In this document: positions 3 through 37,768 of the stretch, piece after piece
Layout of the letters: the number at the start of each line of letters is the position of its first letter
How positions within the stretch are numbered: the first letter of the stretch is position 1
Source: Chitinophaga sp. SYP-B3965
GTDB taxonomy: Bacteria > Bacteroidota > Bacteroidia > Chitinophagales > Chitinophagaceae
Assembly: GCF_009647655.1 (NCBI RefSeq)
Contig: NZ_WJFD01000001.1
Span: 372,001-436,000 of the forward strand
Length of the DNA stretch: 64,000 nucleotides
Direction: 5' to 3'
Made by a program: the position numbers and the translations under genes
The notes under the pieces: model-generated
Seen by the model: the letters and a program-made list of their open reading frames with translations, nothing else
Told to the model about the DNA's origin: nothing
Databases searched by the model: none

Positions 3-158
3 AAAGAACTGGTAGATGGTGGTAAGATGACGTACCAGCAATTCCATGATGCCATCATCCGGGAGAATGCCATGCCGGTGGAGATGGTGAGAGCGCTGTT
101 ATTGAAGCAGGCACCAAAGAAGGATTTTATTACGAACTGGAAGTTTTATAAGTTATAA
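3..158 (+). CDS. C-terminal end of a DUF885-like protein (partial)
   Basis: The frame is open from the window edge and ends at TAA 156-158, giving 51 residues. The fragment contains GKMTYQQFHDAIIRENAMP and ends NWKFYKL. An FHDAI-type segment followed by a proline-containing helix near the C-terminus resembles the end of Bacteroidota DUF885 proteins, which are putative secreted hydrolases or peptidases. This is recognition from memory on a short fragment, so the family is tentative. The gene is followed directly by a large terminator-like inverted repeat. Confidence 0.55.
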   Translation, partial: KELVDGGKMTYQQFHDAIIRENAMPVEMVRALLLKQAPKKDFITNWKFYKL

Positions 159-163
159 AAAGC

Positions 164-242
164 GCCTCCTCCCAAAAAAGGGGGCCGGAATTTTGCCGCG
201 CAGCAGAGGGCGGAGTTTTTTTCTTTTTTGGGAGGAGGAGGC
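164..242. terminator. Large inverted repeat, probable bidirectional terminator
   Basis: The left arm 164-180 (GCCTCCTCCCAAAAAAG) is matched by 223-242, which is its reverse complement with one extra GAG triplet. A second GC-rich motif (193-213) and a T-run lie inside. It sits between the plus-strand DUF885-like gene and the minus-strand gene ending at 432, so it can end transcription from both sides. Confidence 0.7.
193..213 (+). repeat. Dispersed 21-bp 3'-region motif, copy 1
   Basis: TTGCCGCGCAGCAGAGGGCG and one further G is the reverse complement, with one mismatch, of the motif found five times at 30856-31181 and three times at 35500-35708. As elsewhere, a T-tract follows the motif in its own reading direction (TTTTTTTCTTTTTT, about 216-229). 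Here it is in sense orientation just after a plus-strand stop codon. Confidence 0.75.
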
Positions 243-300
243 TTATTATATTATTCTAAAATATGTGACTCGTTATTTGCCTGGGCAGGGGTGGTATAAT

Positions 301-420
301 AGGGGATTAAGGCTGATGCAAGGCCATTGAAAGGCTGATAGAGGCTGTCACGAGGCCTTGCAAGGCCAATCCAAGGCCGATCCAAGGCCGCAAAAGGCCA
401 GTAAGGAAATTAAAAAAGGC
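301..420. repeat. Helically phased AGGC array
   Basis: AGGC starts at 310, 321, 332, 342, 353, 363, 374, 385 and 395, with AGG at 404 and AGGC again at 417. Spacings over the first nine copies are 11,11,10,11,10,11,11,10, a mean of 10.6 bp, which is one DNA helical turn. The flanks vary (CAAGGCCAAT, CCAAGGCCGA and similar). The array lies between the stop codon of the minus-strand gene at 432 and the inverted repeat at 164-242, so it is in that gene's presumed 3' untranslated region. Confidence 0.7.
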
Positions 421-431
421 TGGCGGTGATA

Positions 432-30835: not shown

Positions 30836-31196
30836 CCCTTAAAAGAAAAAAAACACCGCCCTTTGCTGCGCGGCAAGCTCACAATTCCTTAAAGCAAAAA
30901 ACACAATCCCCTTAAAGAAAAAAAAACACCGCCCTTTGCTGCGCGGCAAACTCCCGGCAAAAATCACAACCCATTAAAGCAAAAAACACAATCCCCTTAA
31001 AACAAAAAAAACACCGCCCTTTGCTGCGCGGCAAACTCCCGGCAAAAAACACAATCCCCTTAAAGAAAAAAAAACACCGCCCTTTGCAGCGCGGCAAACT
31101 TCCGGCAAAAATCACAACCCCTTAAGGCAAAAAACACAATCCCTTAAAAGAAAAAAAATACCGCCCTTTGCTGCGCGGCAAACTCCCTGCAGAAAA
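30836..31196 (-). repeat. Five-copy repeat array containing the 21-bp 3'-region motif
   Basis: The motif core CTTTGCTGCGCGGCAA, preceded by CCGCC, begins at 30856, 30929, 31014, 31077 (one mismatch) and 31161: intervals of 73, 85, 63 and 84 bp. Between copies are related segments such as AATCCCCTTAAAG, an A/G tract and CTCCCGGCAAAAA. Read on the minus strand each motif is followed by a T-tract. The array fills the gap between the convergent genes ending at 30817 and 31197, right up to the stop codon of the latter. Intervals are not all multiples of three, so it is not coding. Confidence 0.85.
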
Positions 31197-35454: not shown

Positions 35455-35720
35455 GTGTTTAAAAAAAAAGAATCCCCCCACAAAAAAGAAAAAAATCCTC
35501 CGCCCTTTGCTGCGCGGCAAACCCCCAGCCCCTTGGACTGGGTTTGTTTTTTGGGTAGAAGAAAACTCCATCTCCTCAAAGAAAAAAAAATCCTCCGCCC
35601 TTTGCTGCGCGGCAAACCCCCAGCCCCTTGGACTGAGTTTGCTTTTTTGGTAGAAGAAAACTCCATCTCCTCAAAGAAAAAAATCCTCCGCCCTTTGCTG
35701 CGCGGCAAGCCCCCAGCCCC
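35455..35720 (-). repeat. Three-copy repeat array containing the 21-bp motif
   Basis: Motif copies begin at 35500, 35595 and 35688, 95 and 93 bp apart. Each is followed by CCCCCAGCCCCTTGGACTG-type sequence with its own small inverted repeat (CCCAG/CTGGG), then TTTGGTAGAAGAAAACTCCA and an A-tract. The array runs from the stop codon of the Crp/Fnr gene (35721) towards its terminator (35400-35424), so it is in that gene's 3' region, with the motif in sense orientation followed by T-tracts. Confidence 0.85.
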
Positions 35721-37685: not shown

Positions 37686-37768
37686 AGGTCCACATAGGGT
37701 TAAGATAGGCTTGACATAGGCTCAAGATAGGGAGATCCTATAGCGATCCTATACCCAGGGTATACCTA
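37686..37768. repeat. Helically phased TAGG array
   Basis: AGG starts at 37686, 37696, 37707, 37718 and 37729 (10, 11, 11, 11 bp apart), most within ATAGG. The motif then inverts: CCTAT at 37737, 37748 and 37765. It lies between the stop codon of the minus-strand DUF1080 gene and its terminator hairpin, the same position as the AGGC array at 301-420. Confidence 0.7.

Follow-up and report, generated by a model that had tools for sequence, protein, structure and literature searches.

Seven copies of a helically phased AGGC element in the intergenic regions of Chitinophaga sp. SYP-B3965

The AGGC array that lies near the left end of the window (the whole stretch of 64,000 nt of DNA of the soil bacterium Chitinophaga sp. 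SYP-B3965 that was analyzed) is one of seven copies of a single element, here called F1, in which AGGC words recur once per helical turn and are more strongly conserved than the spacers that separate them. F1 is a dispersed extragenic repeat of an unusual, helically phased build. As to its role, the reading that we hold tentatively, and at somewhat below an even chance, is that the AGGC words, aligned along one helix face, form a docking strip for a putative cooperative DNA-binding protein.

The array, its copies and their setting

The nine AGGC starts given in the preliminary description (310, 321, 332, 342, 353, 363, 374, 385, and 395) are all exact, and a tenth AGGC, at 417, is in phase with them, 22 bp or two turns beyond the one at 395. 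The features in question are these, in window coordinates:

310..398, plus strand: core array, nine AGGC words at spacings of 11, 11, 10, 11, 10, 11, 11, and 10 bp
299..402 (C1:372299-372402 of this genome, G000), plus strand: window copy of F1, by its match to R1, a profile of all seven copies (94.1 bits, E 2.6e-26)
294..421, plus strand: outer limits of F1 similarity, 84% identity with the copy on contig 10
432..1331, minus strand: neighboring gene, DUF6528 (PF20138; E 5.4e-74), with its stop about 34 nt from the array
155..250, no strand assigned: long hairpin (z -5.5 and -5.8 for the two strands) between the array and a plus-strand gene ending at 158

The outer limits take in a left unit, TATAATAGGGGATTA, and a tail bearing the AGGC at 417-420. 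The described stepping by 10 or 11 bp with the phase kept stands well apart from background: when 4-mers of every kind are chained at such steps, the window yields at most nine in a row, and each of 20 order-3 Markov copies of it yields at most three. The contrast once drawn with ordinary tandem repeats holds as a matter of degree. The element is not a simple tandem repeat of fixed period and evenly decaying unit, since its steps mix 10 and 11 bp and its core and spacers differ in conservation, but Tandem Repeats Finder (TRF) does call part of the array (361-390, 2.7 copies of an 11-bp unit). A coding array is ruled out, as steps of 10 and 11 bp are not multiples of three. No Rfam family reached its gathering score in positions 1-2500 of the window, and phage and plasmid records gave no match at E<=0.01.

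The entire genome (7.14 Mb, 15 contigs) was searched for AGGC-N6/7-AGGC-N6/7-AGGC, with the reversed pattern as a control, resulting in 54 matches versus 6. At other spacings the word is at background level (2 matches versus 4 in the control at 12/13 bp, 1 versus 4 at 8/9 bp). All but one of the 54 matches sit in seven loci, the remaining one, on C8, being a shorter array with a different unit. The seven loci are the following:

C1: 372310 (the window copy), 1606287, 1868738, and 2854894
C9: 322923 and 511987
C10: 457253

As these loci align end to end, with an identical order of units over about 105-125 bp, they are copies of one element and not independent expansions. Profile R1, built from all seven on sequence only, recovers the same seven at 74.8-95 bits and, beyond them, up to E=10, just a 12-bit fragment from the left end of one copy. 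No decayed copies were seen, either among the 150 of 508 first-look candidates that were scored with R1 genome-wide or in a direct search of 1.26 Mb, in which the window copy alone was found. A left motif, TATAATAGGRGATT, is not a common part of F1, as it adjoins two copies and one array of a relative (G010) and is elsewhere scattered.

The window copy lies, as originally described, at the 3' end of the minus-strand gene at 432-1331. A terminator had been placed beside it as well; the strong hairpin at 155-250 agrees with this, but a simple terminator scan lists none at 100-460. The array does not go with the DUF6528 gene as such, since none of 24 homologue 3' regions carries one (longest chain three in one of them, two or fewer in the rest; the count covers 24 loci, with L023-L025, L029, and L030 of the family left out). 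The closest named records to this gene are four from Chitinophaga, at 60-65% identity, a list from which records of the genome itself may be omitted. By ORF calls, five of the seven copies are between convergent genes, one is in a tandem region (L121) and one in a divergent region (L122), while in a survey of 1.256 Mb convergent regions account for 14% of the intergenic sequence (p=9e-4); for one copy (L126), the opposite neighbor is a tRNA-Glu. A role in transcription termination, also suggested early, is a candidate: read in the GCCT sense, six copies lie 4-84 nt beyond the end of a gene or tRNA, and one is in the divergent region.

The window also holds nine REP-like hairpin cores, CCGCCCTTTGCTGCGCGGCAAA, including those at 192-213 (within the hairpin at 155-250), 30856-31182, and 35500-35709, with none in 100 shuffles. 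A shorter form has 28 matches in 1.256 Mb of this genome; some are clustered, and 20 fall where genes converge. It has no match in 600 kb of G010 or in 200 kb of another relative, G009.

Core conservation and what might read it

Over nine unit starts in the seven copies, 33 of 36 AGGC core columns are invariant, versus 10 of 53 spacer columns, and departures from the majority base number 4 in 252 core cells versus 87 in 371 spacer cells. When column labels were permuted 100,000 times, this contrast was never reached; the test takes columns as independent, while the copies share ancestry and are a small sample of seven. AGGC served both to define the core columns and to find the copies in the first place, a bias that R1, itself built from those copies, removes only in part. 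All 59 units have C or T directly after AGGC, and the position after that holds G 41 times, A 15 times, and T 3 times, so that the unit may be written as AGGCYR plus a spacer. Steps below 13 bp are 11 bp (43 cases) or 10 bp (17 cases), with a mean of 10.72 and no 9 or 12, and the larger gaps, of 21 or 22 bp, are whole turns again. To judge from the aligned copies, the AGGC core is apparently under selection, and the original proposal of a mark along one helix face is consistent with a conserved core set against freer spacers.

We suggest, with reservation, that the working part of F1 would be these 9-11 or so AGGC half-sites, all on one helix face, which a sequence-specific DNA-binding protein would occupy in head-to-tail order, with a subunit at every turn. 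The bound subunits may assemble cooperatively into a filament, for the most part where genes converge, and such a filament could serve chromosome organization or the insulation of converging transcription at gene boundaries. Counting for docking are the permutation contrast, the specificity of R1, the steps confined to 10 and 11 bp, the spectral peaks of five copies, the spacing controls, the convergent placement, the contiguity of variable columns in 12 other arrays, and the precedent of BldC, the last two described below. Counting against it are the copy between divergent genes (L122), the lack of arrays at the DUF6528 homologues, the total of only seven copies, and the narrow range of R1, which matches 3 of 36 Chitinophaga genomes and 1 of 23 others (strict filters, best candidates scored). 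The cores of other array families, described below, are not obviously readable by one protein, which also weakens docking, as does the C or T that always follows AGGC, by which self-pairing of GGCY in RNA would explain the conservation as well. On these grounds docking is a plausible reading, to be held as somewhat less than probable.

The early suggestion of a bent-DNA element is not supported. A wedge model predicts a bend of 17-26 degrees per 60 bp for five F1 copies versus 33-35 degrees in shuffles, so that the predicted bends do not add up in them as in intrinsically curved DNA; both tested arrays of another family, F5, are predicted to be bent. What the five F1 copies do possess is a wave in GC content, with spectral peaks at 10.55-10.80 bp that 0-4 of 300 shuffles reach, the finer grid used for the observed peaks giving these a small advantage. 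In Escherichia coli, the gyrase motif is described as spanning 130 bp with a 10.75-bp wave of GC% in both arms, and BIME-2 elements as gyrase sites (PMC6379681). By analogy, phased GC-rich and AT-rich blocks in F1 would let about 125 bp wrap on the C-terminal domains of GyrA between convergent genes, which we consider unlikely. The period of the wave, present in all five copies tested, the length, and the mostly convergent placement all agree with wrapping, but the E. coli motif is degenerate, so that a fixed and nearly invariant AGGC is unexpected, and F1 is not a sequence specified only as strong or weak pairs: 49 of the 87 spacer changes are transitions, and the strong/weak pattern is not preserved. 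Moreover, the GC wave is absent from two arrays of a further family, F3, and from two G010 arrays tested, and the predicted static bend of F1 is low.

A folded transcript element, another early suggestion, is a weak candidate: a ladder of GGCY pairs can be drawn, but the folds of four copies and the covariation do not bear it out. RNAalifold gives F1 four nested 4-bp GGCY/GGCY stems (energy -26.5, covariation term -0.87), in which 99.1% of the cells (all but one) are paired, and nearly all pair because GGCY is self-complementary, the C and the T after AGGC both being able to pair with G. Self-pairing is thus a real alternative reason for the conservation of GGCY, and not for that of the preceding A, which is invariant and falls outside the stems; that the kept GGCY can pair led us to weigh an RNA reading higher and docking lower. 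Covariation is no better than in shuffles (221 of 500 reach the observed value), with a double change in 1 of 16 pairs. Single folds of four copies, both strands counted, span z values of -3.4 to +2.2, and the AGGC strand of the window copy, at -3.4, is followed by -2.0, -0.7, and +0.4 in the others.

The opposite strand offers a second RNA reading. A rut site is C-rich, G-poor RNA with regular YC, and the GCCT strand of F1 has a YC at each step, about every 11 nt, so that it might load Rho past the gene ends noted above. This strand is only mildly C-rich in F1 (C/G 1.32), and a rut-like function would better suit three F3 arrays (C/G 4.1-5.4) and an array at 1117558 (14.3), which are strongly C-rich and G-poor. 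The F3 arrays run in the direction of the left gene at 10 of the 11 loci that have it within 250 nt, but it is opposite in the four loci beyond 250 nt (10 of 15 co-directional overall). Divergent genes flank L122 and three F5 copies, which counts against a rut-like reading. Genome-wide, no clear 11-nt wave of YC, GG, or TA was found in tandem 3' or 5' regions, while convergent 3' regions, the arrays themselves included, give weak peaks at 22 in this genome and at 11 in G010, and a 456-kb count of convergent regions gives GG peaks at 11, 22, and 32-33. Taking ladder and rut together, an element acting at the RNA level is distinctly unlikely.

A wider class of arrays with an 11-bp phase

The expectation that phased arrays would occur in related genomes is borne out for some of them, in the form of further arrays, but the AGGC pattern itself shows no clear enrichment in most of 35 relatives. 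It exceeds the control in G010 (32 versus 0) and G012 (11 versus 1) and, by less, in G009 (8 versus 2), and it is below the control in G003 (11 versus 34) and G015 (3 versus 20). In 58 other genomes, R1 at E<=0.05 with strict filters gives weak places, at least 11 in G003, at least 2 in G012, and at least 1 in G048; two of the weak places (L278, L266) are not array-like on reading.

Intergenic TRF rows from 1.256 Mb of this genome number 68, of which 21 have a period of 11, the next periods having 5, and in G010 (600 kb) 26 of 49 have it, compared with 7 of 111 rows in the coding sequence of this genome; the counts are of rows and not of loci, as one array may yield several. In G009 (200 kb) none of 16 rows has this period, despite two phased arrays found there by another scan. 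F1 belongs to a wider class of intergenic arrays phased at about 11 bp, present in its own genome and in some relatives. One example is the F5 family, with the core TACGGGAT, represented by 11 loci in this genome, 2 matches in G020, and none in 34 other genomes, a constant left flank being common to 8 of the 11 copies. Another is the TCCAC core, with six loci and 22 matches versus 2 in the control in this genome, 9 matches in G004 and 3 in G010 (controls 0), and 1-2 each in G003, G006, G012, and G015, where the control has 1-3 in three of the four. A third is the ATACANT core, with about 9.6 units at 1117558, and further families are present. The arrays of G003 and G010 are mosaics, in which one type of 11-mer turns into another, in phase.

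A second phased array is found in the window itself:

37686..37731, plus strand: array of a family other than F1, with ATAGGCTTGAC units of 11 bp, 34 nt beyond a minus-strand gene

After it come CCTATA words in the opposite orientation, and units similar to its own occur in L127 of this genome and in G009. In G010, long palindromes have arms built of 11-bp repeats, ACCGCTTAGAT and CTTACGTTCAT (C1:271101-271190, C1:366857-366963, and C1:584441-584561), and a similar arrangement is seen at C1:105080-105161 of this genome. Arrays of two families share one intergenic region in L121 (C1:1606109 and 1606287), in L128 and L129 of G003, and in L137 and L138 of G010. At C1:1117492-1117663 of this genome, arrays of ATACTTCYCG and ATACAYTCCCC units follow a gene end, the second (C/G 14.3) being the most rut-like among the stretches measured.

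The sharp peak at period 11, seen in all intergenic kinds, could also speak for a neutral origin, in which an ancestral 11-bp tandem repeat was copied to seven intergenic sites and has no function, the wider class reflecting a mutational taste for 11-bp duplication. Such an origin would accord with the lineage specificity of the array families and with the constant left flank of F5, and it is rather unlikely in view of cores that are conserved while spacers diverge, of the failure of the R1 searches to find decayed copies of F1, and of AGGC steps that mix 10 and 11 bp with no 9 or 12 among 60. In 12 other arrays with 11-bp units, variable columns tend to be contiguous (combined p=0.002, 5 of 12 below 0.05 alone), several of these arrays being of one family and so not independent. 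Other families of the genus repeat this design, a kept core and less constrained spacers, around cores of their own, which suggests several related binders, or one that is multi-specific. By extension of docking, the families with AGGC, TACGGGAT, AAGTCCAC, ATACANT, and other cores might together make up an undescribed class of chromosome-organizing arrays in some Chitinophaga, at which protein filaments would nucleate between genes. AGGC- and TCCAC-type arrays do exceed their controls in some relatives, and we regard a class of this nature as doubtful.

Comparison with known systems

Descriptions of helical phasing in bacterial DNA usually concern a weak statistical tendency. In F1 it takes the form of a separate element that can be counted, with one fixed word at each turn, apparent selection, and a position at gene boundaries. 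If a protein reads F1, the element would provide a direct handle on how such bacteria organize or insulate converging genes; if F1 is neutral, it would reveal a mutational process with an 11-bp step.

Among the titles and abstract openings listed from the open-licence literature on phased, intergenic, and 11-bp repeats, Chitinophaga, REP, gyrase, BldC, and Rho sites in Bacteroides, no description of F1 was found, and the systems that come closest each share part of its build. The approximately 11-bp periodicity of bacterial genomes, intergenic regions included, is near the helical repeat, but it is reported as a diffuse dinucleotide bias (PMC516772, PMC4132750), whereas F1 is a discrete element with a GC-rich word. 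The TAACTGA heptamers of Beggiatoaceae and some Bacteroidetes are, like F1, dispersed intergenic direct repeats of unproven function, but they have a 7-base unit and, in the genome studied, are mostly found directly before start codons (PMC4679880). REP elements are also small dispersed extragenic repeats, but are described as palindromes of 20-40 bp (PMC3733652), while F1 is a row of direct repeats, without the palindromic unit and stable hairpin expected of a REP or BIME. Strong gyrase sites and BIME-2, of E. coli and Mu, resemble F1 in their approximately 130 bp and 10.75-bp GC wave, BIME-2 being intergenic as well (PMC6379681); F1 differs in having a fixed AGGC core per turn, no degenerate motif, and no REP units. 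A precedent for the docking proposed here is given by BldC-type operators, in which, as in F1, direct repeats follow one another at one-turn steps and vary in number; on the smeA-sffA site, BldC is described as building filaments head to tail, its subunits one DNA turn apart (PMC5859096, PMC11963761). F1 shares the direct repeats at one-turn steps (10 or 11 bp, mean 10.72) and not the consensus: BldC reads AATTnnnnC at the promoters described in those papers, whereas F1 carries 9-11 repeats of AGGC, in units of AGGCYR plus a spacer, mostly at the 3' ends of genes.
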